Shown piece by piece: positions 36,502 to 52,433 of a stretch of DNA of 64,000 nt. The notes beneath the pieces are model-generated. The model searched no databases and was not told the origin of the DNA. It saw only the letters and a program-made list of their open reading frames with translations. Each line of letters starts with the position of its first letter. Position 1 is the first letter of the stretch. Source of the DNA: Chloroflexaceae bacterium (GTDB taxonomy: Bacteria; Chloroflexota; Chloroflexia; Chloroflexales; Chloroflexaceae); NCBI GenBank assembly GCA_025057155.1, contig JANWYD010000008.1, forward strand, positions 62,001 through 126,000, read 5' to 3'. The position numbers were made by a program, and so were the translations under genes.

Positions 36502-38517
36502 ATGCACATCCGAACCTGGACCATCACCCTCGTCTTAACCCTCAGCGTTCTCCTCGGCGGCGTCCGCGTCACGGCCCAGCCGCCGCGCCCGAGCGAGGCC
36601 CCCGCGCCCGCCGCCACCCCTGTAGAAACCTTGCTCAACCCCGACGGCACCCTGCGGCTCGACGGCTCGTTCAGCGGCGCGCTCGACGTGAGCGGCTGGC
36701 AGGTCACCCTCGACCCCGAACAGGGGCCGATCTTCCAGTCCCAGAGCGGCGCGCCCCGGTGGACCAACCTGGGGTCTATGCCCGACGGCGCTCTCAACAA
36801 CCAGGTCCTCGCCCTGGCGGTGAGCGGCACAGACGTGTATGTGGGCGGCAGTTTCACCAACGTCGCAGGCATTCCTCAGGCCGACTATGTCGCGCGCTGG
36901 GACACCACGACCAACACCTGGAGCGCCCTCGGCGGCGACGCTAACGGCGCGCTGGACTTCGGCAGCGTGGTCCACGCCCTGGCGGTGAGCGGCAGCAACG
37001 TGTATGTGGGCGGCAGCTTCTGGGACGCCGCGGGCATCCCCCAGGCCGACCTTGTGGCGCGCTGGAATGCGACCACCAACACCTGGAGCGCCCTGGGGGG
37101 CAGCGGCAGCAACGGCGCGCTCACCGGCGGGGTCGGCGCCCTGGCGGTGAGCGGCAGCAACGTGTATGTGGGCGGCAACTTCCAGAATGCAGCGGGCCTC
37201 GTCCGGGCCGACTTCGTGGCCCGCCTGGATACGACTACCAACACCTGGAGCGCCCTCGGCGGTGGCAGCAGTACCAGCGGCGCGCTCACCGGCGGGGTCA
37301 GAGCCGTGGCGGTGAGCGGCGGCGAACTGTTCGTGGGCGGCGATTTCTGGAGCGCTGCGAACATCTTCGAAGCCACCTTCGCCGCGCGCTGGAACGGCAG
37401 CGCCTGGAGCGCCCTGGAAGCCGGCGGCGGCTACGCCGCACCGTCCGGTAATGTCTATGCCCTGGCGGTGAGCGGCAGCGACGTGTACGTGGGTGGCCGC
37501 TTCTGGAACGCCGCGGGTATCCCCCAGGCCGACTACGTGGCGCGCTGGAATAGTATGACCAACACCTGGAGCGCCCTCGGCGGCGGCGTTGACGGCGCAC
37601 TCGATGGCGAGGTCACCGCCCTGGCGGTGAACGGCGGCGACGTGTACGCGGGCGGCAGGTTCACCGACGCCGCAGGCATTCCCGAAGCCGACTATGTGGC
37701 GCGCTGGGACGGGAGCAGTTGGAGCGCCCTGGGGGGCAGCGGCGGCAACGGCGCGCTAAACGACACGGTCACCGCCCTGGCGGTGAACGGCGGCGACGTG
37801 TACGCGGGCGGCTGGTTCACCGACGCCGCGGGCATTCCCGAAGCCGACTACGTGGCGCGCTGGAATGGGAGCAGTTGGAGCGCCCTGGGGGGCAGCGGCG
37901 GCAACGGCGCGCTGAACAACGGAGTCAGATCCCTGACGGTGAGCGGCAACGACCTGTTTGCAGGCGGCTTCTTCCAGGATGCTGCCGGCAACCTGGCCGC
38001 CGATTTCGTCGCCGCCTATGCCACGCCGCCGTCCGTCAGCGCCATCACCCGCGTCAACCCGAATCCCACCTCCGCCGCCAGCGTGCAGTTCCAGGTCGCC
38101 TTCGACGAGCCAGTCACCGGTGTGGCCGCCAGCGACTTCACCCTGACGACCACCGGCAGTCTGAGCGGGGCCAGCGTCACCGGCGTGAGCGGCAGCGGCG
38201 CGACCTACACGGTCACCGTCGCTACCGGGACCGGGGACGGCACGCTGCGCCTCGATGTGCCCGCCGGGGCGACCATCGCCGACCTGGCCGGATTGAACGT
38301 GAGCAACCTGCCCTTCACCAGCGGGCAGGCGTACACCGTGAATAGGGGCGGGGGCAGCCTGATCCCGACACCGATGCCTCCGGTCGTGAACCCAACCCCC
38401 ACCCCGATGCCTCCGGTCGTGAACCCAACCCCCACCCCGATGCCCCCCGTCGCGACCCCCACGCCTCCGGGCGGCGGCGCGCCGGTCAGGGTCTACCTGC
38501 CGCTGGCGCAGCGCTGA
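36502..38517 (+). CDS. Secreted propeller-like repeat protein with Big/Ig-like domain and YLPLAQR tail
   Basis: 671 residues. A signal peptide (TWTITLVLTLSVLLGGVRVTA) is followed by seven full and one partial repeat of about 47-53 residues (near 95-500), each with the pattern ALAVSG-DVYVGG-F--AAGIP-ADYVARW----WSALGG, suggesting a beta-propeller. Repeats six and seven are almost identical, a sign of recent duplication. An Ig/Big-like domain (about 505-610, FDEPVTGVAASDFTLTT) follows, then PT-rich repeats (NPTPTPMPPV) and the end VRVYLPLAQR. A surface-attached or exported adhesin or binding protein is likely; the ligand is unknown. A good ribosome site (GGAGAAGGAAG) precedes ATG 36502. Confidence 0.82.
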   Translation: MHIRTWTITLVLTLSVLLGGVRVTAQPPRPSEAPAPAATPVETLLNPDGTLRLDGSFSGALDVSGWQVTLDPEQGPIFQSQSGAPRWTNLGSMPDGALNNQVLALAVSGTDVYVGGSFTNVAGIPQADYVARWDTTTNTWSALGGDANGALDFGSVVHALAVSGSNVYVGGSFWDAAGIPQADLVARWNATTNTWSALGGSGSNGALTGGVGALAVSGSNVYVGGNFQNAAGLVRADFVARLDTTTNTWSALGGGSSTSGALTGGVRAVAVSGGELFVGGDFWSAANIFEATFAARWNGSAWSALEAGGGYAAPSGNVYALAVSGSDVYVGGRFWNAAGIPQADYVARWNSMTNTWSALGGGVDGALDGEVTALAVNGGDVYAGGRFTDAAGIPEADYVARWDGSSWSALGGSGGNGALNDTVTALAVNGGDVYAGGWFTDAAGIPEADYVARWNGSSWSALGGSGGNGALNNGVRSLTVSGNDLFAGGFFQDAAGNLAADFVAAYATPPSVSAITRVNPNPTSAASVQFQVAFDEPVTGVAASDFTLTTTGSLSGASVTGVSGSGATYTVTVATGTGDGTLRLDVPAGATIADLAGLNVSNLPFTSGQAYTVNRGGGSLIPTPMPPVVNPTPTPMPPVVNPTPTPMPPVATPTPPGGGAPVRVYLPLAQR

Positions 38518-39015: not shown

Positions 39016-40464
39016 ATGAACCGCTCCCAGCTCATCGAGGAGTTGCGGCGCATCGTCGGTCCCGCCGGAGTGGTGGCCGACCCCGTGGCCCTGATGACCT
39101 ACGACGCCGATGGCTGTGTGATGGATACCGGCGAGCCGCAGGTGGTGGTGCTGCCCGCCAGTGCTGAACAGGTCAGCGGCGTGGTGCGCCTGGCCTCGCG
39201 CTACGGCGTGCCTATTGTGCCCCGCGGGGCCGGCACGGGTCTCTCCGGCGGCGCCACGCCCATCGGCGGGGGGATCGTCGTCAGCACGGCGCGGATGGAC
39301 CGGGTGCTCGAAATTGACGCGCGCAATGGCCGGGCGCTCTGCCAGCCGGGGGTGATCAACTGGGAACTGTCGCAGGCGGTCAGGCCGTATGGCTACCAGT
39401 TCGCTCCTGATCCCTCCTCGCAAAAGGCCTGCACCGTCGGCGGCAATATCGCCAACAACGCCGGCGGCCCCCACTGTCTCAAGTATGGCACGACCGCGAG
39501 CCACGTGCTGGGGGTGCAGATGGTGCTGCCTGATGGCTCGATCATCTGGACCGGGGACGGCAACCCCGCCCCGGTGGGTTACGATCTGACCGGGGTGATC
39601 ACCGGCAGCGAAGGCACCATCGGCCTGGTGACCGCCGCCTGGCTCAAGCTCACGCGGCTGCCGGAGGCGGTGCGGGTTGTGCTGGCCCTGTTTCCCGACA
39701 TCGCCGGGGCCTCGGCCAGCGTCTCGCAGGTGATCGCCAGCGGCTTCCTGCCCGCAGCGCTGGAGATTATGGACCGCCTGGCGATCAAGGCCGTCAACGA
39801 CATGTACAGACTCGGCCTCCCCGAACAGGCCGGCGCGGCGCTGCTCATCGAAGTGGACGGCGTGGACGATGGTCTGGATGAGTTGCTGGCCGACATGACC
39901 ACCGTCTGCTGGCGCAACGGGGCGCTGGATGTGCGCCCGGCGCGCACCCCGGCGGAGCAGAACCAGGTCTGGGCGGCGCGTAAGAACGCCTTCGGCGCGA
40001 TGGGTCGCCTGGCCCCGACCTACTACCTGGTTGATACGGTCGTCCCGCGCACCCGGCTGCCCTACACCATGGAGCAGGTCGGGCGCATCTCGCAGGAGCA
40101 CCGCCTGCCTATCGCCAATGTCTTCCACGCTGGCGACGGCAACCTGCACCCGATCATTCTCTTCGACCGGCGCGACCGCAGCCAGAACCAGCGGGCGCTA
40201 GAGGCGGCCACGGCGGTGATGCACGTGAGCATCGAGCAGGGCGGGGTAATCAGCGGCGAGCACGGCATCGGCGTCGAGAAGCAGGACTACATGACCCTGC
40301 TCTTCTCCACCGAGGACCTGGCGGCCATGGCCGGGCTGCACCAGAGCTTCGATCCCTACGACCTGTTCAATCCGGGCAAGGTCTTTCCGAAGGGGCGCGG
40401 TTGCGGCGAACTGGCCGCCCTGCGCCGGGCGGGCGTGGCCTGGAGCGAGTTGAAGAGCCGGTAG
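39016..40464 (+). CDS. glcD: FAD-linked oxidase, glycolate oxidase subunit GlcD-like
   Basis: Flavoprotein that oxidises a 2-hydroxyacid (glycolate or D-lactate) to the 2-oxoacid. The 482-residue protein has the PCMH-type FAD domain with [20 protein letters not shown] and [20 protein letters not shown], then [18 protein letters not shown], and the C-terminal FAD-oxidase domain with [17 protein letters not shown] and [15 protein letters not shown] (metal/substrate His motifs). It is the first gene of an operon: glcE starts 10 bases after its stop. AAGGAAG lies about six bases before ATG 39016. D-lactate dehydrogenases share this fold, so the true substrate is inferred from the GlcE and GlcF partners. 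Confidence 0.92.
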
Positions 40465-40474
40465 GTGACGCCCT

Positions 40475-41755
40475 ATGCTTCCTGCATCACTGACGCGCCA
40501 GTTGGCCGCGATCGTCGGCCCCGACGCCCTCTCTGAGGAGACGGCGCCGTTCGCCGTGCATGGCCGGGCCCCCGCCCTGGTGATCACTCCCGCCACGGTG
40601 GAGGATCTGGCCCGCGCCGTCGCCGCCTGCCACGCCGCGCGCGTGCCCCTGGTCCCCTGGGGCGGGGGCACACGCCAGCGCTGGGGCCGGCCCGTCGCCG
40701 CCGAGACCTTCGTCGTCCTCCGCACGACGGGACTGCGCTCGATTCTGCTGCACGAGCCTGACGATCTCACCATCTCGGTCGAGGCGGGGATGACCTTCGC
40801 CGCGCTGAACGCGGCCCTCGCCGCGCACAACCAGATGTTGCCCCTGGACCCCCCGCGGCCCGAGCAGAGCACCGTCGGCGGCCTGCTGGCCTCCGGCGCG
40901 GATGGCCCGCGGCGGCTGGCCTACGGTACCAGCCGCGACCTGCTGATCGGCATCCGCGTGGTGGAGGCGACGGGCCGCATCAGCAAGGCCGGCGGCATGG
41001 TGGTGAAGAACGTCAGCGGCTTCGATATGATGAAACTCTACCTGGGCAGTCTGGGCACGCTGGCGATCATCGTCTCGGCTAACTTCAAACTGATACCCCG
41101 GCCGCGGGCCGCGGCGAGCCTGAGTTGCTTCTTCGCTCAGCCCGAGCGAGCCTTCCGGCTGATCACCGCGCTGAGCGCGAGCCAGCTTACGCCCGCCGCA
41201 GTGGAGTACCGCGAGGACGGCGCCGCGGCGAGCATCGAGGCGCGGATCGAGGGCCTGCCCGCCGCGGTCGAACGCCACGTGCGCGACGTGCGCCGCATGG
41301 CCGAGGAGGCTGGCGCCGGCGCGGTTTCCCTCGCCGCCGAGGGTTTTGCCGAGGTGGAACGGCGCTGGGCCGGCTTCAACGACGCCCCGCAGACGGTTGA
41401 TCTGGCCGCCGACGAACTGGTGGCCCGGCTGAGCTGCCTGCCCGGAGCGCTGGAGGCGGCCCTGGGCGACGCGCGCGCCCTGGCCGCCCGCGAGGGTCTG
41501 GCGCTGCGCGTGCAGGCCCGCGCCCTCGGCGGGGTGGCCTACCTGCGCCTGCGGGGCGGCGATGAGGCCCTGCGGGCCTGGCACGCGGCCATGCTCGCCC
41601 GCTGGCCGCACCTGGTGGTCATCGGCGCGCAGCCGGCCCTGGCCGCCGAATTGCCCGTCTGGGGCGCGGCGCTGGCCAATCTGGATCTGATGCGGCGGAT
41701 CAAGCAGGAATTCGACCCGGAGAATCTCCTGAATCCCGGGCGCTACGTGGTGTGA
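40475..41755 (+). CDS. glcE: FAD-binding subunit GlcE-like
   Basis: 426 residues with one PCMH-type FAD domain: ATVEDLARAVAACHAARVPLVPWGGGT, EAGMTFAALNAALAAHNQMLPLDPPRPEQSTVGGLLASGADGPRR, RISKAGGMVVKNVSGFDMMKLYLGSLGTLA. Those are GlcE hallmarks (VKNVSGYD). The C-terminal part is divergent and ends FDPENLLNPGRYVV, as in GlcD. In Escherichia coli, GlcD, GlcE and GlcF together form glycolate oxidase. Its stop codon shares one base with the start of the next gene (TGATG), indicating translational coupling. Confidence 0.88.
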   Translation: MLPASLTRQLAAIVGPDALSEETAPFAVHGRAPALVITPATVEDLARAVAACHAARVPLVPWGGGTRQRWGRPVAAETFVVLRTTGLRSILLHEPDDLTISVEAGMTFAALNAALAAHNQMLPLDPPRPEQSTVGGLLASGADGPRRLAYGTSRDLLIGIRVVEATGRISKAGGMVVKNVSGFDMMKLYLGSLGTLAIIVSANFKLIPRPRAAASLSCFFAQPERAFRLITALSASQLTPAAVEYREDGAAASIEARIEGLPAAVERHVRDVRRMAEEAGAGAVSLAAEGFAEVERRWAGFNDAPQTVDLAADELVARLSCLPGALEAALGDARALAAREGLALRVQARALGGVAYLRLRGGDEALRAWHAAMLARWPHLVVIGAQPALAAELPVWGAALANLDLMRRIKQEFDPENLLNPGRYVV

Positions 41756-44550
41756 TGGTGCCGCCAGAGCTGATCGCCGAACTGATCCGCGTCGTCGGGC
41801 CGCGCGCCGTGGTCCTGCATCCCGACGCCCTGCGCACCTACGACGCCGACGCGAGCATGATCGTCGCCCACGCGCCAGACGTGGCGGTGCTGCCCGCCAC
41901 GCCCGAGGAGGCCGCCGCGGTGGTGCGCCTGGCCGTGGCCGCCGGGCTGCCCGTGGTGGCTCGCGGGGCCGGCACGGGCATCGCTGGCGGCGCCATTCCC
42001 GTCCGCGGTGGCGTGCTTCTCAGCACCGCGCGCATGGAGCGCATCGAGGCGATTGAACCGCGCTCGCGCCGGGCGCTGGTCGGCGCCGGGGTGGTCAACG
42101 CCGAGTTGAACGCCCGCCTGGCGCCCCTGGGATTGCAATTCGCCCCCGATCCCTCCTCGCAGAAGGCCAGCACCATCGGCGGCAACCTGGCCACCAACGC
42201 TGGCGGCCCCCACTGCTTGAAGTACGGCGTTACAACCAACCACGTCCTGGCCCTGGAACTGGCGCGTCCCGATGGAACCCTGCTCTGGACCGGCGATGGG
42301 ACCCCCGACGCCGCTGGCTACGACCTGACCGGCGTCGTGGTCGGCAGCGAGGGGACCTTCGGCGTGATCACCCGGGCGCTAGTGCGGCTCACGCCGCTGC
42401 CCGAAGCCAACCGCGTGGTGCTGGCGCTCTTTCCCAACGTCGTCGCCGCCTCCGCTGCAGTGAGCCGGATCATCGCCGCTGGCGCCCTGCCCGCCTCGCT
42501 GGAGGTGATGGACCACAACGGCATTCGCGCCGTCAACCGGGCCTATGGCCTGGGCCTGCCCGAATCGGGCGAGACGACCCTGCTAATCATCGAGGTGGAC
42601 GGCGTCAACGAGGGGTTGGACGAGACCCTGGAGGAAATCCTGGAGATCTGCCGGGCGCAGGGAGCCTTTGACTTGCGCCCGGCCCGCACCCCCGCCGAGC
42701 AGGCGCGGGTCTGGGCGGCGCGCAAGGCGATGGCCGGGGCCGTCGGGCGACTGGCGCCGGCTTACCTGCTCGTGGACACGGTGGTGCCCCGCACCCGCCT
42801 GCCGCTGATGATGGAGCATATTGAGCGGCTGCGGCACGAGTGGCGCATGGAGGTCTGCAACGTCTTCCACGCCGGCGACGGCAACCTGCATCCGATGGTG
42901 CTCTACGATCCCCGCGACGCCGACCAGCGCGCCCGCGCCCACGCGATCGCCGGGGCGGTGCTCAAGCTGAGCATCGAACAGGGCGGGGTGATCAGCGGCG
43001 AGCACGGCATCGGGGTGGAGAAGCAGGAGTACCTGCCGCTGCTGCTCGAACCGCACGAACTCCAGCTCCACGCCGCCATCTACACCTGTTTCAACCCCGA
43101 AGATTGCTTCAACCCCGGCAAGATCTTCCCCGCCGCCCTGCGCCCCCGCGACCTGGCCGCGCAACGCCAGGCGCGCATGCGCGCCACTGCCCCGCGCTCC
43201 TTGCCCGGGGCCGGCGGAGAAGGAGAAGGCCGGTCGCGCCTCGCTGTGACTGGCGCGCCGGAGGCGAGCCGCCTCGACAGCGCCGCCCTCGCGGCAATCG
43301 TGGGCGCTGACTATGTGACCGCCAGCGGCGCCGCCCTCGCCGTCAGCCCCGGCAGCGTCGAGGAGCTGGCGCGTGTGGTGGCCCTCTGCCACCGCGTTGG
43401 CGCGCCCGTGCGACCCTGTGGCGACGCGGCGCGGCTCGACGGCGCGCGCGCCCAGACTCCCGCCCTGCGCATCGCCACCCGGCGCCTGAAGCGGGTGCTG
43501 GTCTACGAACCGGACGACCTGACCATTGGAGTCGAGGCGGGGATGAGCCTGGCCGAACTCCAGACGCTCCTCGCCGCCAACGGCCAGATGCTCCCTCTGG
43601 ATGTACACCGGCCAGAGGCGGCCACCCTGGGCGCGCTGGTCGCCGTCGCCGCCGACGGGCCGCGACGCCTGGGGTACGGCACATTGCGCGACTGGGTGCT
43701 GGGCCTGACCATCGTCGAGGCCGACGGCGCCGTGTCGCGCCTGGGCGGCCAGGTGGTCAAGAACGTGAGCGGCTTCGACCTGGTCAAGCTCCTGGTGGGC
43801 AGCCATGGCACCCTGGGGGTGATCGCGGCGGTGCGCCTGCGGGTCTTTCCGCGGCCACGGGCCGCAGCGACGCTGCTTGCCGCCTTCGCCGGGCGGCAAC
43901 AGGCCCTGGCCTGCCTGGACGCGGTGGCAGACACGCGGCTACAACCCACCGCCGCGGAACTGGTCGCGGGGCCGCCCGAACCGAGCGCGCCGCTGGCCGT
44001 TCCGTCCGGGGGCGCGCTGCTGGCCCTGCGGGCCGAGGGCCACCCGGCGGCGGTGGCGCGGCACATGCGCGCCTTGCGCGCCCTGGCCGGCGAGGCCGGC
44101 GCCCTGAGCGCCGACGAACTGAGCGGAGGCGACGAGGAGGCCCTGTGGGCTGAAGTGGCGCGCCGCGCCGCGCCCCCGGAGGCGCCTGGCGCCAGTCTGA
44201 TGCGCCTGTGCGCCGCGCCCGCCGGCCTGGGGGCCGCCCTCGATGCCGCCGAGGCCGAGGCCCTGCCGCGCGGGTTGGCTCTAAGCATCTGCGCCCGGGG
44301 CCTGAGCGGCGTGGCCTACCTCCAGGTCGCGGGGCCGGTAGAGGGGCGTCTCGACTTCCACGCCGCCCTTGTGCGACGCCTGCGCCACGCCCATCTGCTC
44401 GACCCGTTCCTGGCCGCTCGCGCGGCGCAGCCCCGGGGCGCGCCGCCGCCCGCCCTGGGGCTGATGCGGGCGATCAAAACCGAACTTGACCCCTTCAACC
44501 GGATGAACCCCGGCGCCTTTTTCTGGCGGGACGCCGCCTCTGCACCATAA
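41755..44550 (+). CDS. Natural GlcD-GlcE fusion protein
   Basis: 931 residues, two complete flavoprotein units in one chain. Residues 1-460 are GlcD-like ([88 protein letters not shown]). A linker of about 40 residues follows (RATAPRSLPGAGGEGEGRSR). Residues 510-931 are GlcE-like (VSPGSVEELARVVALCHRVG, EAGMSLAELQTLLAANGQML, GGQVVKNVSGFDLVKLLVGSHG, AIKTELDPFNRMNPGAFFW). It therefore duplicates the two preceding genes as one product, giving the operon four FAD domains and a single Fe-S subunit. ATG 41755 overlaps the glcE stop; a GTG one codon earlier is possible. Substrate may differ from the separate pair. Confidence 0.9.
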   Translation: MVPPELIAELIRVVGPRAVVLHPDALRTYDADASMIVAHAPDVAVLPATPEEAAAVVRLAVAAGLPVVARGAGTGIAGGAIPVRGGVLLSTARMERIEAIEPRSRRALVGAGVVNAELNARLAPLGLQFAPDPSSQKASTIGGNLATNAGGPHCLKYGVTTNHVLALELARPDGTLLWTGDGTPDAAGYDLTGVVVGSEGTFGVITRALVRLTPLPEANRVVLALFPNVVAASAAVSRIIAAGALPASLEVMDHNGIRAVNRAYGLGLPESGETTLLIIEVDGVNEGLDETLEEILEICRAQGAFDLRPARTPAEQARVWAARKAMAGAVGRLAPAYLLVDTVVPRTRLPLMMEHIERLRHEWRMEVCNVFHAGDGNLHPMVLYDPRDADQRARAHAIAGAVLKLSIEQGGVISGEHGIGVEKQEYLPLLLEPHELQLHAAIYTCFNPEDCFNPGKIFPAALRPRDLAAQRQARMRATAPRSLPGAGGEGEGRSRLAVTGAPEASRLDSAALAAIVGADYVTASGAALAVSPGSVEELARVVALCHRVGAPVRPCGDAARLDGARAQTPALRIATRRLKRVLVYEPDDLTIGVEAGMSLAELQTLLAANGQMLPLDVHRPEAATLGALVAVAADGPRRLGYGTLRDWVLGLTIVEADGAVSRLGGQVVKNVSGFDLVKLLVGSHGTLGVIAAVRLRVFPRPRAAATLLAAFAGRQQALACLDAVADTRLQPTAAELVAGPPEPSAPLAVPSGGALLALRAEGHPAAVARHMRALRALAGEAGALSADELSGGDEEALWAEVARRAAPPEAPGASLMRLCAAPAGLGAALDAAEAEALPRGLALSICARGLSGVAYLQVAGPVEGRLDFHAALVRRLRHAHLLDPFLAARAAQPRGAPPPALGLMRAIKTELDPFNRMNPGAFFWRDAASAP

Positions 44551-44597
44551 GCCTGAACAAGCGGCGGGACAGCGCCCGCCCTGGATGGAGAGACAGC

Positions 44598-45974
44598 ATG
44601 ACGCTCACCACCCCCGAACGCGAGACGCTCAGCATCCCCCTGGCGCCCTTCAGCGCCAGAGATCGCCCCAGTTCCGACATCATCAACACCTGCGTGCACT
44701 GCGGCCTGTGCCTCTCCTCTTGCCCCACCTACCGTGAAACCGGACTGGAAATGTCCTCGCCGCGCGGGCGGATCTACCTGATGAAGGCGGTGGACGAAGG
44801 ACGCATTGGCATGGAGAGCGAGGTCTTTCAGGAGCAGATGAGCCAGTGCCTCAACTGCCGCGCCTGTGAAGCGGTCTGCCCCTCGGGGGTGCAGTACGGC
44901 GCCATACTCGAGGCGAGCCGGGCGCAGATCGAGCAAGCGCGCGAGCGGGGCGCGCGCGACCCCGCCGCGCCGGGGGCGCTGCCGCCGCGGCCCCTGTGGC
45001 AACGGGCGCTGCGCGGCGCCGTTTTCGGCGCCCTGTTCAAGGATATGGGACTGTTCCGGGCCTTCTCGGCCTCTATGCGGCTCTACCAGCGCAGCGGCGC
45101 GCAGTGGATCGCACGCAAGAGCGGGCTGCTGAAGCTGATCGGCATGGCCGACGCCGAGCGGATGCTACCGCCGATCAACGCCCGCTTCACCGTGCCCAGG
45201 GGACAGATCTACCCCGCCGAGGGCGAACGGCGCTACAGCGTGGCCCTGCTCACCGGCTGCATCATGAGCACCGCCTTCGCTGGCGTCCACGAGGCCACCA
45301 TCCGCGTGCTCCAGAAGAACGGCTGCGAGGTAATCCTCCCGCCCGGCCAGGGCTGCTGTGGGGCCCTGCACACCCACGGCGGCGACCTCGACGGGGGCCG
45401 CGACCTGGCGCGGCGCAACATCGCCGCCTTTGAAGCCCTGGGAGTGGACGCGATTGTGGTCAACGCCGCCGGCTGCGGCAGCACGCTCAAAGAGTACCAC
45501 CACCTGCTCCACGACGACCCCCTGTGGTACGAGCGGGCTGCCGCCTTCAGCCGCAAGGTCAAAGACGTGCACGAGTTTCTGGCCGGCATCGAGTTCAACC
45601 GCGCCGGTCTGGGCCGCCTCGACGTGCAGGTGACCTACCAGGAACCCTGCCACCTCGCCCATGCCCAGCGCATCACCGTGCAGCCGCGAACGCTGCTCAC
45701 CGCCATTCCGGGGCTGCAATTGCGCGAAATGCACGAGAGCGCCCTCTGCTGCGGCTCGGCGGGGGTCTACAACCTTACTCAGCCCGACATGGCCGCGCGC
45801 CTCGGCGCGCGCAAGGTGGATAACGCCCTCGCCACCGGCGCGCGGGTCATCGCTACGGCCAATCCCGGCTGCGCCCTGCAACTGGCGGGCGAACTGCGGC
45901 GGCGCGGCGAAGATGTGCAGGTGCGCTACATCGTCGAGTTGCTCGACGAGAGCTACCGCCGCAGGGCGCCGTAG
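44598..45974 (+). CDS. glcF: Fe-S oxidoreductase subunit GlcF-like
   Basis: Electron-transfer subunit of glycolate oxidase; it takes electrons from the flavin subunits to the membrane quinone pool. 458 residues. The N-terminus has two [4Fe-4S] ferredoxin motifs, CVHCGLCLSSCPTYRE (about 32-47) and CLNCRACEAVCPSG (about 83-96), and the rest two CCG domains with GQGCCGALHTHGGD and QEPCHLAHAQR plus ALCCGSAGVYNL. Length and order match GlcF. It begins 47 bases after the fusion gene, the last of four genes in the operon, and ends in a GCAACCC-type hairpin. Confidence 0.94.
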   Translation: MTLTTPERETLSIPLAPFSARDRPSSDIINTCVHCGLCLSSCPTYRETGLEMSSPRGRIYLMKAVDEGRIGMESEVFQEQMSQCLNCRACEAVCPSGVQYGAILEASRAQIEQARERGARDPAAPGALPPRPLWQRALRGAVFGALFKDMGLFRAFSASMRLYQRSGAQWIARKSGLLKLIGMADAERMLPPINARFTVPRGQIYPAEGERRYSVALLTGCIMSTAFAGVHEATIRVLQKNGCEVILPPGQGCCGALHTHGGDLDGGRDLARRNIAAFEALGVDAIVVNAAGCGSTLKEYHHLLHDDPLWYERAAAFSRKVKDVHEFLAGIEFNRAGLGRLDVQVTYQEPCHLAHAQRITVQPRTLLTAIPGLQLREMHESALCCGSAGVYNLTQPDMAARLGARKVDNALATGARVIATANPGCALQLAGELRRRGEDVQVRYIVELLDESYRRRAP

Positions 45975-46080: not shown

Positions 46081-46087
46081 AATGATG

Positions 46088-46093
46088 TACAAT
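46088..46093 (+). promoter_or_regulatory. -10 element (TACAAT) of htpG
   Basis: TACAAT followed by an A-rich tract, in an AT-rich patch right after the 16-bp hairpin and 76 bases before the htpG start. No good -35 is present because the hairpin occupies that space. No CIRCE is seen. Confidence 0.45.
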
Positions 46094-46168
46094 AAAAACG
46101 TTTGGGCGGGCAGCGCCCCGGCGCCCCCCTGTATTCAAATCAATGTTCACTCGTTGCAGGAGAGATGT

Positions 46169-48040
46169 ATGACCACGGAGAACGCAACGACGAACCAGAC
46201 CGAGTCGCTTACCTTCAAAGCCGAAGTGCAGCAGGTGTTGCACATCCTGGCGCACTCGCTCTATACCGATCGTGAGATTTTCCTGCGCGAACTGATCTCG
46301 AACGCCTCCGATGCGCTCAACCGCGTCCAGTTTGAAATGCTCACCAACCGGGAGGTGCGCGACCCCGACGCTGAACTGGCGATCTGGATCGAGTCCGACC
46401 CGGATAAGGGCACCCTGACCGTGCGCGATACGGGCATCGGCATGACCCGCGAGGAGATGATCGAACACCTGGGCACCATCGCCCAGTCGAGCGCGCGGGC
46501 CTTTGTTGATCGCATCCGCGAGACCAGCAAAGCCAGCGCCAGCGAGATTATCGGCCAGTTTGGCGTTGGTTTCTACTCTGTGTTCATGGTTGCAGATAAG
46601 GTGACCGTCGTCTCGCGTTCCTACCGCCCCGAAGCCGAGGCGGCCATGTGGGAGAGCGACGGCAGCGAGCGCTACACCGTCGGCCCGGCCGAGCGCGAAG
46701 GGCGCGGCACGACGATTATCGTGCATCTGAAAGAGGACGCGAAGGAGTTCGCCCAGAGCTGGCGCATCGAGCAGATTGTCAAGCGCCACTCCGACTTCGT
46801 GGCCTTCCCCATCTATATGGGCGAGCGGCAGATCAACCAGCAGAAGGCCCTCTGGCGCCGCGCACCCCGCGAGGTGGAGCCGGAGCAGTACCGCAACCTG
46901 TACCGCCAGCTCACCCTCGACCACGAAGAGCCGCTGCTGCACGTGCACCTCTCGACCGACGCGCCGGTGGATCTGCACAGCATCCTCTTCATTCCCGCCA
47001 GGCGCGAGCGCGGGCTGTTCGAGCGGCGCATCGAGGGCAAGATTAAGCTCTACTCGCGCAAGGTCCTGATCACGGAAGAGGCCAGGGATCTGCTGCCGGC
47101 CCACTTCCGCTTCGTTGAAGGCGTGGTGGACAGCGAAGACCTGCCGCTGAACGTCTCGCGCGAGAGCGTGCAGAGCGCCCCGGTGATCCAGCGCATCCGC
47201 AAGACCCTGTCCGCGCGCTTGCACCGCGAACTGAACGATCTCGCCGACAGCGATCCCCAGAAGTTCGCCCGCTTCTGGCAGGAGTTTGGCGTCTTCATTA
47301 AAGAAGGCGTGGCGATGGACTACGAGAACCGCAGCGAGTTGCTCAAATTGCTGCGCTTCCACACCACCCGCGGCGGCGACGACCTGGTGACCCTGGGACA
47401 GTACAAGAGCCGCATCGTGGACGGGCAGAAGGAGATCTACTACCTGATGGCCTCAAGCCTCGAGGCGGCGCGCACCAGCCCGCACCTCGACCCCTTCACC
47501 GCCCGCGGTATTGAGGTGCTCCTGCTGCACGACCTGGTGGACGGGCTGATGCTCTCGGGCCTGCGCGAGTACGAGGGGCTGCGGCTGCGCAATGTTGACG
47601 AAGCCGATCTGCAGTTGCCCGGCGAGGTCGAGGCGGCGCCCCCGCAGATCAACGATGAGCAGTTCACGCGGCTGGCCGAACGGGCGGCGGCGGTGCTCGG
47701 CGAACGCATCAAGGAGGTGCGCGCCTCGAAGGTGCTGCGCGACAGCCCGGCGCGCCTGGTCAGCGACGAAGAGGGCCTGGGGCGCCATATGCAGCGCATC
47801 CATCAGGTGCTGGGGCAGGAGGTCGAGCAGCGCCCGCGCATCCTCGAACTGAACCCGGCCCACAGCCTGATCGCCGCCCTCGCCCGGCGACTGGAGGCCA
47901 ACCCGGAGGACCAGGTGGTCACCGCCGGCCTGGAGCAACTCTACGACAACGCCCTGCTGCTGGAGGGGCTGCACCAGAATCCGGCGGCGATGGTGCCGCG
48001 CCTGCTGACGCTGATCGAGGCCGCTGCGCGCCAGGAGTGA
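46169..48040 (+). CDS. htpG: Molecular chaperone HtpG (Hsp90)
   Basis: ATP-dependent homodimeric chaperone. 623 residues with the three bacterial Hsp90 domains and no charged linker. The N-terminal ATPase has LFLRELISNASDAL-type EIFLRELISNASDALNRVQF, VRDTGIGMTREEM and IGQFGVGFYSVFMVADKV. The middle domain carries FPIYMGE and the catalytic-Arg region LPLNVSRESVQ. The C-terminal dimerisation domain is present. I chose ATG 46169 (MTTENATTNQ) because AGGAGAG is just upstream; an open frame from 46082 adds 29 residues that look like leader. Probably monocistronic. Confidence 0.96.
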   Translation: MTTENATTNQTESLTFKAEVQQVLHILAHSLYTDREIFLRELISNASDALNRVQFEMLTNREVRDPDAELAIWIESDPDKGTLTVRDTGIGMTREEMIEHLGTIAQSSARAFVDRIRETSKASASEIIGQFGVGFYSVFMVADKVTVVSRSYRPEAEAAMWESDGSERYTVGPAEREGRGTTIIVHLKEDAKEFAQSWRIEQIVKRHSDFVAFPIYMGERQINQQKALWRRAPREVEPEQYRNLYRQLTLDHEEPLLHVHLSTDAPVDLHSILFIPARRERGLFERRIEGKIKLYSRKVLITEEARDLLPAHFRFVEGVVDSEDLPLNVSRESVQSAPVIQRIRKTLSARLHRELNDLADSDPQKFARFWQEFGVFIKEGVAMDYENRSELLKLLRFHTTRGGDDLVTLGQYKSRIVDGQKEIYYLMASSLEAARTSPHLDPFTARGIEVLLLHDLVDGLMLSGLREYEGLRLRNVDEADLQLPGEVEAAPPQINDEQFTRLAERAAAVLGERIKEVRASKVLRDSPARLVSDEEGLGRHMQRIHQVLGQEVEQRPRILELNPAHSLIAALARRLEANPEDQVVTAGLEQLYDNALLLEGLHQNPAAMVPRLLTLIEAAARQE

Positions 48041-48102
48041 GGCCCCCTGTCTGCCGCTCACGGCTTGTTGTTTGCAAATGGGGGCGGGCGTAGAGTTTTT
48101 CG

Positions 48103-48184
48103 CGCGAGGAGGGTCGGCATTTTAGTGCGCTGATGAATCTCACGCCCCTGTCCCCTCTCCCGCGCGCGGCAGAGGGGGCAGGGG
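48103..48184. repeat. Dispersed AAGCGAGAAG...TGCGCTTAC element, copy 2 (degenerate)
   Basis: GCGCGAGGAGGGTCGGCATT, TTAGTGCGCTGATGAATCTC and a C-run/G-run hairpin (48145-48184) align in order with 21107-21197 and, more weakly, 63837-63903. Confidence 0.45.
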
Positions 48185-48288
48185 CTTCCGAATGCCACAA
48201 ATAGCGAATGTCCACTTGCAGGTAATGCACAACCGTCGGAAGGAGGCCGGGAGGGGGGCGCGGCGCGTCACACTCCCCGTCTGCCCTG

Positions 48289-48317
48289 CTGACAAGGAGC
48301 GAAACTCATGGTACAAT
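48289..48317 (+). promoter_or_regulatory. Housekeeping promoter of hrcA
   Basis: CTGACA (48289-48294), a 17-base spacer and TACAAT (48312-48317) form a near-consensus sigma-70 promoter. The CIRCE operator begins 48 bases after the -10 box, within the transcribed leader. Confidence 0.75.
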
Positions 48318-48364
48318 CTACCGCGGCGTGCACAGCGTGCACGCCACTGCTTTAGTTTTGCGCT

Positions 48365-48391
48365 TTAGCACTCTCCGGTTGAGAGTGCTAA
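48365..48391 (+). promoter_or_regulatory. CIRCE operator (HrcA binding site)
   Basis: TTAGCACTC, nine bases, GAGTGCTAA: a perfect match to the CIRCE consensus. It lies 20 bases before the hrcA start and predicts autoregulation by HrcA, released when GroEL is busy with unfolded protein. Confidence 0.97.
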
Positions 48392-48411
48392 CTCAGTGAG
48401 GATGCGCGGCT

Positions 48412-49530
48412 ATGTCGGCAGTGCTGACTGAGCGGCGGCAAGCCATTCTCAAGCTGGTTATTCAGGAGTTCGTGGAAACCGCCTGCCCCGTGGCTTCGGA
48501 GACCCTGGTACGCAAGTACCGGCTCAACGTCTCGCCGGCAACGGTGCGCAACGAACTGGCGGCGCTGGAGGAACTGGGGTATCTGACCCACCTGCACACC
48601 TCGGCGGGGCGGGTGCCTACCGACGCCGGCTACCGGTTCTTCGTCGAGAACCTGATGGAACGCACCACCCTTCCCCTGGCGGAGCAGCGCACCATCCGGC
48701 ACCAGTTTTACCAGGTGCGCGGCGAACTTGACCAGTGGATCCAGCTCGCCGGGGCCGTGCTGGCGCGCACCACCCAGAACGCCTCGCTCGTTACGCCCCC
48801 GCGCTCGGCGGAACCGCTGCGCTTCCGCAGCATCGAGCTGATCGCCATTCACGACACCATAGCCCTGGCGGTGCTGGTGTTCCATGGCGGCATCGTCAAA
48901 CAACAGACGGTCACCCTGGACACGGCGCGCAGTTCCGAGGATCTGCGCCGCAGCGCCGCCCGCCTCAGCGACTATCTGGCCGACCAGACGTTGAGTGGCA
49001 TCGAGGAGACCCTGGCGCGCCCCGTGGAGCAGCAACCACTGTTGCTTACCGACTTCGAGCGCGGGCTGGTGGAGATGCTCGTGCGCGCGATGCAGACCTT
49101 CGAGGAGCAGTCGCGCGAACAGATCCACTCTGACGGGCTGATCGAGATGTTGAGCCAGCCGGAGTTCATTCCGTCGCTGGTGCGCGAAGACGCCGAGCGG
49201 GCCGTGGAGCGTCTGCGCCGGGCGCTGGAGATCCTCAAGAGCGGGCGGGGCCTGGGCGCGCTCATCTCCCAGGTGCTCGCCTCCGACGGGGTGCAGGTGA
49301 TCATCGGCGGCGAAAACAGCGCCGATGAGATGCGCGAATACAGCGTGGTGCTGGCGCGCTACGGCGTGGAGAACGCCATTGCCGGAGTGCTTGGCGTCAT
49401 CGGGCCAACCCGCATGGCCTACCCGCGCTCCATCTCTACCGTGCGCTACATCTCGTCGCTAATGAGCGACCTGCTGGCCGAACTGTACAATGTGGAGAGC
49501 CGCGTCCCGGAAGGCGAGGCGCTCGAATAG
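48412..49530 (+). CDS. hrcA: Heat-inducible transcription repressor HrcA
   Basis: Dimeric repressor that binds CIRCE and depends on GroEL for folding. 372 residues. The N-terminal winged helix shows [41 protein letters not shown] and [20 protein letters not shown], the family signature. The middle GAF-like part (about 110-310) ends with [16 protein letters not shown] and [20 protein letters not shown]. Length is usual. A perfect CIRCE lies immediately upstream. grpE-dnaK-dnaJ follow on the same strand, but after a 413-base spacer. Confidence 0.97.
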
Positions 49531-49681
49531 GTCCGCGGATCGCTCCGCGCTCCGGCGCCCGGTGTGGTATCGCATGACCCACGCATGCATGACCGTCTGG
49601 AGAATCGCGGAGGGCGCGGCCTTCCGCACCTTCTCCTGCCTGTTATCTGAAAGGCCACGTCTTCTGCCATTTCGGATTGCG

Positions 49682-49754
49682 GGTTTTGGATTGGCGTACA
49701 TGGCGTCCCGATGAGATGCGGTGATGATGCGTCTGCACTGTGCAACAGGAACTG
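49682..49754. repeat. 73-base dispersed element, copy 1
   Basis: Shares GTTTTGGATTG, ATGGCGTCCCGA, GTGATG and CAACAGGAA in the same order and spacing with 56299-56372, though divergent overall. Both copies lie in spacers. Confidence 0.55.
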
Positions 49755-49858
49755 GCGTTAGAGACTGTCTCAAACCTCGGTAAGACCGTAAGAGACCGGG
49801 TAGACAGCTAGTTTTCCGGAAAGGCTGCGCCCTCCCGGACTCGTCCCTCTGGCAGGGG

Positions 49859-49883
49859 CGTGGAGAAACCTGGTTTCTCCGAC
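49859..49883. repeat. GGGGAAACC palindrome copy upstream of grpE
   Basis: GGAGAAACCTGGTTTCTCC (49862-49880) is a perfect palindrome around one base. Each arm differs from the family core at one position, and the two changes compensate each other, so the stem is preserved. It is 60 bases before the grpE start. Confidence 0.65.
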
Positions 49884-49943
49884 CTTCTCGAGCTGGCTGC
49901 CAATTGTTATGAGATAGTCTCTGCGAAGATAACGAGGAGACCT

Positions 49944-50528
49944 ATGAGCGAAGAACAGAACATCGCTACGGATAACGAAGCGGCCACTACCGCCGAGACC
50001 GTTCCGCCCGCCGAGACCGCTCCGGTGATTGAGGCCGCTCCGGCGGCTGAGGGCGCCGGGGCGACCCCGGAGGAGTTGCAGGCCCGGCTGGCTGAGGCCG
50101 AGGCCCAGGCCGCCGAATACAAGGATCAGTGGCTGCGCGCCGCCGCCGATTACAAAAACTTCAAGCGCCGCGTCGAGATCGAACGGGCCGAACTGATCCG
50201 CAGCGCCTCGTCGGCGCTGCTGTTGAAACTGCTGCCGGTGCTTGACGACTTCGAGCGAGCCATCGCCAATATTCCCCCTGAGATCGCCGAAACGCCATGG
50301 TGGAGCGGCACGCAGTTGATCGCCCAGAAGTTGCGCACTATCCTTGAGAGCGAAGGGGTGAAACCGATTGAGGCTCTGGGTCAGGAATTCGATCCAAATT
50401 TGCATGAAGCGGTGCTCTACGAAGAGGCTGAAGGCCAGGAAGGCAAGGTCATCGCCGAATTGCAGAAGGGCTACAAACTGGGCGATCGCGTGTTGCGCCC
50501 GAGCATGGTCAAGGTAGGTCGTGGATAA
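49944..50528 (+). CDS. grpE: Nucleotide exchange factor GrpE
   Basis: Releases ADP from DnaK. 194 residues. An acidic, Ala/Pro-rich N-terminal tail precedes the long coiled coil (LQARLAEAEAQAAEYKDQWL, RAAADYKNFKRRVEIER) and the C-terminal four-helix/beta-wing head (LLPVLDDFERAIANIP, QEFDPNLHEAVLY, ELQKGYKLGDRVLRPSMVKV), all family signatures. I chose ATG 49944 (MSEEQNIA) because GAGGAGA sits five bases upstream; the frame is open from 49860 but that part covers a palindromic repeat. dnaK starts 18 bases downstream. Confidence 0.95.
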   Translation: MSEEQNIATDNEAATTAETVPPAETAPVIEAAPAAEGAGATPEELQARLAEAEAQAAEYKDQWLRAAADYKNFKRRVEIERAELIRSASSALLLKLLPVLDDFERAIANIPPEIAETPWWSGTQLIAQKLRTILESEGVKPIEALGQEFDPNLHEAVLYEEAEGQEGKVIAELQKGYKLGDRVLRPSMVKVGRG

Positions 50529-50546
50529 GCGATAGAGTGAGGTTGC

Positions 50547-52433
50547 ATGCCCAAGGTTATCGGAATCGATCTGGGAACCACCAACTCGGTCGTGGCCGTG
50601 GTCGAGGGCGGCGAGGCGGTGGTGATCCCCAACGCCGAGGGATCGCGGCTCACCCCCTCGGTGGTGGCGGTCAACAAGTCCGGCGAGCGTATGGTGGGCC
50701 AGGTGGCCCGCCGCCAGGCTGTGACCAATCCGGAGAATACCATCTTTTCGGTCAAGCGGTTCATTGGCCGGAAGTTCAACGAGCCGACGGTGCAGAAGGA
50801 TCTCAGCCTGGTGCCCTACAAGCTCTCCAGCGCGCCGAATGGCGATGTGCGGGTGCTGATGGGCGGGCGCGAGTACGCGCCTCCGGAGATCTCCGCCATG
50901 GTGCTGCAGAAGCTCAAGGCCGACGCCGAGGCCTACCTGGGCGAACCGGTGACCCAGGCGGTGATTACCGTGCCGGCCTACTTCAACGACAGCCAGCGTC
51001 AGGCCACCAAAGACGCCGGCAAGATCGCCGGGCTGGAGGTGCTGCGCATCGTCAACGAGCCAACCGCTTCGGCCCTGGCCTATGGCCTCGATAAGAAGGG
51101 CAAAGACGAGATCGTGGTCGTCTATGACATGGGCGGCGGCACCTTCGATGTCTCCATCCTCGAACTCAGCGAGGGCGTGGTGGAGGTGAAGGCCACCAGC
51201 GGCGACACGCACCTCGGCGGCGATGATTTCGACCAGCGCATTATTGACTGGCTGGCCGATGAGTTTCGCAAGGAGCACGGCGTTGATCTGCGGCAGGACC
51301 GCATGGCCCTGCAACGGCTCAAGGAGGCCGCCGAAAAGGCCAAGATGGAGCTTTCCAGCGTCGGGCAGACCGAGATCAACCTGCCCTTCATCACCGCCGA
51401 CGCCTCCGGCCCCAAGCATCTGAACATCACCCTGACGCGGTCGAAGCTCGAACAACTCACCGCCGATCTGATCGAGCGCAGCATGGGTCCCGTGCGCCAG
51501 GCCCTCAGCGACGCCGGCCTCAAGCCGTCACAGATTGACGAGGTGATCCTGGTTGGCGGGCAGACGCGCATGCCGGCCATCCAGGAGGCGGTGCGGAAGT
51601 TCTTCGGCAAGGAGCCGAACAAGTCGGTCAACCCCGACGAAGTGGTGGCCATCGGCGCCGCTATTCAGGCCGGCGTGCTCGGCGGCGAAGTGAAGGATGT
51701 GCTGCTGCTCGACGTGACCCCGCTGACCCTCGGGATTGAGACCCTCGGCGGGGTGATGACCCCCCTGATCGAGCGCAATACCACTATCCCCACCCGCAAG
51801 AGCCAGGTCTTCTCAACCGCCAGCGACAATCAAAGCAGCGTTGAGATCCATGTCCTGCAGGGCGAACGGGCCGAGGCGCGCTACAATAAGAGTCTGGGAC
51901 GCTTCGAGCTGTCAGGCATCCCCCCGGCCCCGCGCGGCGTGCCGCAGATCGAGGTGACGTTCGATATTGACGCCAATGGGATTGTGAACGTGACCGCCAG
52001 GGACAAGGCCACCGGCAAGGAGCAACGCATCACCATCACCGCCTCATCGGGCCTGAGCGAGGAGGAGATCGAGCGCATGATCCGCGACGCCGAAGCCCAC
52101 GCCGAGGAGGACCGGCGGCGTCGCGAGTTGATCGAGGCCCGCAACCATGCCGATAGCCTGATCTACACCGCCGAACGCTCCATGCGCGAGGTGGGCGAAG
52201 CCCTCGATGGGGCCATCCGTACCGAGGTGCAGGACAAGATCAGCGCCCTGCGGGCCGTGCTCGATGGCGATGACGTCAACGAGATTCGCAACAAATCGGC
52301 CGAATTGAGCGTCTCGATGCAAAAAATAGGTCAGGCAGCCTATGAGGCCCAGCGCGGGTCGGCCAATGGCGCCGACGCCTCCGGCGGCAAGGCCGGCGAC
52401 GACGTGGTCGAGGGCGAGTACAAAGTAGATTAG
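50547..52433 (+). CDS. dnaK: Molecular chaperone DnaK (Hsp70)
   Basis: ATP-dependent chaperone. 628 residues: nucleotide-binding domain with [37 protein letters not shown] and [18 protein letters not shown], the linker [15 protein letters not shown], then the peptide-binding domain ([37 protein letters not shown]) and a helical lid. The C-terminus ends VEGEYKVD rather than the EEVD-like tail of eukaryotes, but the DDVVEGEY wording is normal for bacteria. Middle gene of grpE-dnaK-dnaJ; dnaJ starts 56 bases later. Confidence 0.98.

Follow-up and report, generated by a model that had tools for sequence, protein, structure and literature searches.

A fused GlcD-GlcE module beside a GlcDEF-type enzyme in Chloroflexaceae, and how the two may share one GlcF

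The 64,000-nucleotide stretch of a Chloroflexaceae bacterium analysed here (the window; contig JANWYD010000008.1 of assembly GCA_025057155.1, contig C8 of a 5.1 Mb genome) contains an operon in which a standalone glcD and glcE (encoding D1 and E1) are followed by a glcD-glcE fusion (halves D2 and E2) and a single glcF (F). The arrangement is real and family-wide: a GlcDEF-type enzyme is accompanied by a further GlcD-GlcE module that has been fused and remodelled. The reading we prefer from sequence comparison, with a probability of about 0.55, is that two GlcDEF-type modules deliver to one GlcF, one of them oxidising glycolate and the other a larger D-2-hydroxyacid, probably D-lactate. The first module, D1 and E1, would be an ordinary glycolate dehydrogenase with the shallow Phe/Tyr pocket kept. 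The fusion would be a duplicate with a catalytically complete GlcD half whose pocket has been widened by a change of Phe to Ala, and it would most likely oxidise a larger D-2-hydroxyacid, with D-lactate as the first candidate. Its E2 half, with a damaged flavin adenine dinucleotide (FAD) site, would serve mainly as a structural or docking domain, and GlcF would hand electrons to menaquinone.

All four genes lie on the forward strand. The 482-residue catalytic flavoprotein is encoded by glcD (39016-40464), which is separated by 10 bases from glcE (40475-41755; 426 residues, the second flavoprotein subunit; PF01565, E 2.7e-31). The fusion (41755-44550) encodes 931 residues from an ATG at 41755 that overlaps the glcE stop by one base, or 932 residues from a GTG at 41752. 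The iron-sulphur (Fe-S) subunit of 458 residues is encoded by glcF (44598-45974) and has two CxxCxxCxxxCP (4Fe-4S) sites and two CCG domains (CCG, E 1.5e-36; Fer4_8, E 7.5e-14). These coordinates, taken from a preliminary description of this DNA, held when re-read, and the Pfam domains agree with them, with FAD_binding_4 and FAD-oxidase_C in glcD (PF01565, E 2.7e-43; PF02913, E 8.6e-64) and two FAD_binding_4 domains with one FAD-oxidase_C in the fusion. We also see the single glcD, glcE and glcF that it gave for E. coli. The NCBIfam equivalog models scored the proteins below their cut-offs (GlcD model, 450.9 for glcD and 538.1 for the fusion, cut-off 567.9; GlcE model, 170.7 bits for E1, cut-off 284; GlcF model, 299.7, cut-off 333), and we therefore use ‘GlcDEF-type’ only in a broad sense. 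In that sense glcD and the fusion have the GlcD domain pair and the R, H, H, E, H residues, GlcF has the Fe-S and CCG sites, and E1 has both FAD_binding_4 and an intact FAD loop, while E2 still matches the Pfam domain though its loop is lost.

The order glcD-glcE-fusion-glcF occurs in 15 related genomes counting the window. The other 14 loci (L012, L013, L015, L018, L020, L021, L023, L026, L030, L032, L138, L139, L140 and L172; L denotes a locus and G a genome) include two with a frame-broken gene, the fusion in L030 and glcE in L018, and G031 and G034 are single-contig genomes. Since the order recurs in these independent assemblies, the fusion is not an artefact of assembly or a broken frame, the finding that would have overturned the preliminary description, and the operon it proposed to look for in relatives is indeed found there.

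We compared the substrate pockets of the two GlcD units. In crystal structures the residue four positions after the substrate-site arginine contacts the substrate side chain, as Trp351 in mouse LDHD (PMC10589216) and as Tyr327 in PdG-D-LDH (PMC12724367). For E. coli GlcD, Phe341 at this position and Tyr351 are argued to give a shallow, glycolate-specific pocket (PMC10589216), and the glycolate argument rests on this pair. In alignments the window glcD has both, with Phe326 (Arg322 + 4; codon TTC, 39991-39993) as the equivalent of Phe341, and the fusion has Ala327 (Arg323 + 4; codon GCC, 42733-42735) together with the Tyr. The D1 orthologue group has Phe in 35 of 35 rows, with Tyr at the 351 position (one contig is counted twice, and row L027 bears a Verrucomicrobia title). 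The derived fusions, one per genome, have Ala in 21 of 21 and retain the Tyr, and the eight other fusions of the clade (L141-L146, L163 and L164) all keep Phe. The Arg, both metal His, the Glu and the catalytic His are intact in every D1 and fusion row. In the window fusion the motifs that align with the metal and base residues of mouse LDHD, HAGDGNLH (42868-42891) and GEHGIG (42997-43014), occur once each, so that both C-terminal sites described earlier are present, each in the D2 half. A Phe copy is also carried by 19 of the 21 genomes with an Ala copy, as a pair of Phe-type fusions in G061 and as a standalone D1 in the others; in the remaining two (G001 and G015) the locus ends at a contig edge. 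The genomes examined that have a single member (G011, G023, G035, G013, G018 and G028) all have Phe. The Ala therefore marks an additional copy.

This distribution bears on whether both modules oxidise glycolate, with the fusion acting as a high-flux or low-affinity duplicate that differs in regulation or kinetics. The shared operon would suit such an arrangement, as would G013, G018 and G028, where a Phe-type fusion is apparently the only such module and fusion is thus compatible with the old role. However, the pocket residue was changed to Ala and has been kept in every derived fusion, mostly beside a Phe copy, and we regard a common substrate as unlikely. An aromatic residue at this position does not by itself mean glycolate: the structure 9qgz_A, considered as a glycolate oxidase because of its molecule name, was rejected as such since its title and paper identify a D-lactate dehydrogenase.

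Two further fusions occur in the same genome, and the first offers a comparison for the enlarged pocket. On contig C1 (L009, 1973-7710) a lactate permease gene (PF02652, E 5.9e-168) is found with a second glcF and a more distant glcD-glcE fusion of 870 residues, and the order lactate permease-glcF-fusion occurs again in G011 (L133, 2724-8830). The pocket residue of these permease-linked fusions (own genome and G011) is Val/Ala, and D-lactate is therefore a first guess for the window fusion and should be taken as just that. A substrate larger still, such as D-2-hydroxybutyrate, D-2-hydroxyisovalerate or another D-2-hydroxyacid, is somewhat less improbable than a common substrate, as solved D-lactate dehydrogenases have Trp, Tyr or Leu at this position, all bulkier than Ala. 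On the other hand, among the window genes scanned none beside the operon belonged to a pathway for these acids. The second fusion, on contig C2 (L010, 4662-6995, minus strand), is a reversed GlcE-GlcD protein of 777 residues that lacks the N-terminal part of GlcE, and also occurs in L119, L122 and L170. Its pocket residue is Ser, and Arg stands where E. coli GlcD has Tyr351, a charged pocket that could accept a dicarboxylic hydroxyacid.

The two modules are separable. D1, E1 and F occur without the D2-E2 fusion in G011, G023 and G035, and a Phe-type fusion occurs with F and without D1 in G013, G018 and G028. In the three Chloroploca genomes (G007, G022 and G029, 99-100% complete) the fusion lies beside glcF and D1-E1 lie on another contig; the flanks read around D1-E1 contain no glcF, and each genome gave one GlcF-like match at E<=1e-30. 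In G061 (AL-N1; L022, L163, L164 and L165) three fusions of the clade, one with Ala and two with Phe, lie on three contigs with one unlinked glcF and no standalone D1. A further three genomes (G008, G014 and G017) have a glcF orthologue but neither D1 nor D2, and its surroundings contain no D-E genes; either it is used there by D-E units of another kind, or these drafts lack the genes. The preliminary description had offered two outcomes, two oxidases of different substrate on the same GlcF or a larger complex. The first is supported by the comparative evidence, namely the Phe to Ala pocket, the separable modules and the single GlcF-like protein in Chloroploca. In the second, a single GlcF would carry D1, E1 and the fusion in one obligate complex with several flavins, which the close and tightly spaced genes of the 15 genomes might lead one to expect. 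Because each module occurs without the other, and Chloroploca separates them, we consider this obligate form improbable, the least likely of the alternatives discussed here; this verdict is limited to the obligate form. As a separate point, the possibility that D1 and E1 are themselves fully fused in Chloroploca, raised by an open-frame value of 976, was rejected, since there are stops between the two.

The GlcE half of the fusion differs from standalone GlcE in its flavin site. The FAD pyrophosphate loop of E1 is intact (GGGTRQRWG, 40661-40687); at the corresponding place E2 reads GDAARLDGA (43420-43446), and approximately 11 residues are missing before it. The earlier statement that the fusion retains the FAD motifs of both units thus stands for D2, in which the loop RGAGTG is kept, and fails for E2. 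Within the E1 orthologue group the loop GGGT(R/Q)Q is kept in every one of the 36 rows whose N-terminus is readable (one further row is a fragment), and it is kept in nine of nine early-branching fusions. In the core fusions, the window included, it is lost in 16 of 18, by shortening or by loss of the glycines. This rule is valid only within the E1/E2 group: applied strictly, it scores as lost 7 of 24 other standalone GlcE proteins, one of them from the same order (L128), all by substitutions at unchanged length, and four more have no readable N-terminus. The permease-linked fusions fail the rule in four of four cases, in L124 through a shorter loop alone, and the reversed fusions lack the loop region in four of four. 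A GlcE FAD loop that is damaged or missing therefore occurs in all three fusion types (D2-E2, D3-E3 next to the lactate permease, and the reversed E4-D4), and the standalone glcE orthologues keep theirs.

We infer that FAD binding by E2 is weak or absent. With the pyrophosphate loop gone from E2, the ‘four flavin domains’ of the preliminary description become probably three. That E2 instead still binds FAD through other contacts, the loop change being neutral, is doubtful though better placed than the alternatives above. The VAO/PCMH fold of E2 is predicted to persist, the segments DGPRRLGYG and VKNVSGFD are kept, and two of the Chloroploca loops are still GGGT; the predominance of loop loss in the core fusions, set against none in 36 E1 rows, argues the other way. 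An AlphaFold2 model of the fusion (predicted TM-score 0.88; mean predicted local distance difference test score (pLDDT) 83.9) has the halves predicted to pack firmly. The mean confidence of the GlcE half is ~87 in this model and ~75 when modelled alone, values for which the underlying alignments differ. The pLDDT of the loop was left out of the evidence because the intact loops of the GlcD half are also low, and Thermus GlcE (2yvs) was not among the 50 matches listed for the E2 fold. A broader and tentative proposal is that GlcE is an adapter and not a needed flavin carrier, so that its FAD site decays when it is joined to GlcD, with one GlcF as the common outlet for several substrate-specific GlcD-GlcE cartridges.

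The history of the fusion was examined in a joint GlcD and GlcE tree of 53 rows (21 fused and 32 separate, the window left out). All 21 fusions fall on one side of a single branch (Shimodaira-Hasegawa-like approximate likelihood ratio test support 100) and adjoin the standalone pairs of their own family, apart from Roseiflexaceae (support 97). One glcDE pair was therefore duplicated and fused once. Among the fusions a subset of 16 has the Ala pocket (support 97), and within it lies a core subset of 14 (support 100) in which the E2 loop is degenerate in all but L017. This nesting suggests an order of duplication, fusion, pocket change and loop decay. The timing of the duplication is uncertain because a tree of GlcE alone disagrees with the joint tree, placing the split earlier, before Roseiflexaceae.

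The neighbourhood of glcF gives an indication of the electron acceptor. In 14 genomes glcF is followed by a gene for an ActB-like component of alternative complex III (ACIII), and the E. coli GlcDEF enzyme is quinone-linked (PMC13101534); together these point to menaquinone as the likely acceptor. In C. aurantiacus, proteins named as an FAD oxidase (Caur_2133), a D-lactate dehydrogenase (Caur_2134) and a Cys-rich Fe-S protein (Caur_2135) lie ahead of ActB (Caur_2136) (Tang et al. 2011, PMC3150298), an order shared by the G031 locus. The genes are thus already in the published C. aurantiacus genome. That paper lists glcDEF as Caur_1144-1145, 2133 and 2135, and its passages on the region treat Caur_2133-2135 as K, L and M of a respiratory ACIII operon, with no discussion there of fusion, pocket or sharing. 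The window differs in having htpG, and not ACIII, after glcF. In a hot-spring mat the two excreted metabolites found were glycolate and lactate (PMC4400912), which match the two proposed modules; this is a fit and no proof.

Several observations weigh against the reading of two modules with different substrates, a damaged E2 flavin site and a shared GlcF. All of D1, E1, the fusion and F have sub-threshold equivalog scores, and PMC10589216 derives the pocket depth of E. coli GlcD from an AlphaFold model and docking. Residues other than Phe occupy the pocket position in standalone GlcD of other groups too. Within the same family, a second standalone glcD-glcE type (L118, L126, L128 and L134-L136) has Leu there; its GlcD is ~46-48% identical to D1, and no glcF match was found in the flanks read. 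As regards the flavin, both core E2 halves that still pass the loop rule are from Chloroploca, the third Chloroploca sequence reading GGGL, and the retained DGPRRLGYG is the other FAD-facing segment. Finally, further CCG-domain proteins are present in 13 of 13 genomes tested, and GlcF need not be the sole acceptor.

The operon resembles E. coli GlcDEF in its three kinds of subunit, in the order D-E-F and in the Phe341/Tyr351 pair common to the window glcD; it differs in the second, fused module, where Ala replaces Phe and the FAD loop of GlcE is damaged. The fold of the GlcD half is that of mammalian LDHD and PdG-D-LDH (8JDE, 9QIT; Z 42.1, root-mean-square deviation 2.0 over 447 residues against 8jdp), with the same metal and Arg residues. 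Unlike the fusion, those enzymes are single-subunit, have neither GlcE nor GlcF, and carry Trp or Tyr in place of the Ala. The GlcDEF-like proteins 24-26 of benzene degraders (PMC13101534) are comparable in that a GlcDEF architecture is proposed for a new substrate, but they are separate proteins with <=23% identity to GlcDEF and an unrelated substrate. No GlcD-GlcE fusion in Chloroflexi appeared in the titles and abstract openings of the open-access papers that our searches listed, which did not cover subscription papers. A genome with both a looped GlcE and a loopless fused GlcE half, two GlcD pockets and one GlcF provides a natural comparison, through which the role of GlcE, the need for its flavin and the use of one Fe-S subunit by several dehydrogenases become directly testable. 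The comparison also helps annotation to tell the use of glycolate from that of other D-2-hydroxyacids in bacteria living on cyanobacterial excretions.

Some further features were noted around the operon and its relatives. In G005 (L140, 4314-5222) a PF03446/PF14833 gene, 3-hydroxyisobutyrate dehydrogenase-like and possibly a glyoxylate-side reductase, lies directly 5' of glcD. The titles of L027, L043 and L084 (Verrucomicrobia, Singulisphaera and Bifidobacterium breve) do not fit their genes, which resemble Chloroflexales or actinobacterial ones, and these sequences are probably misnamed or misbinned. Upstream of the window operon (36502-38517) is a 671-residue protein with repeated GGSFTNVAG-like units and a PTPTPMPPV repeat at its end, resembling an exported surface protein. 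Downstream of glcF (46082-52430) a heat-shock run comprises an htpG-like gene (652 residues), an hrcA-like gene at 48412, GrpE (PF01025) and DnaK (PF00012), with htpG and hrcA named by eye.

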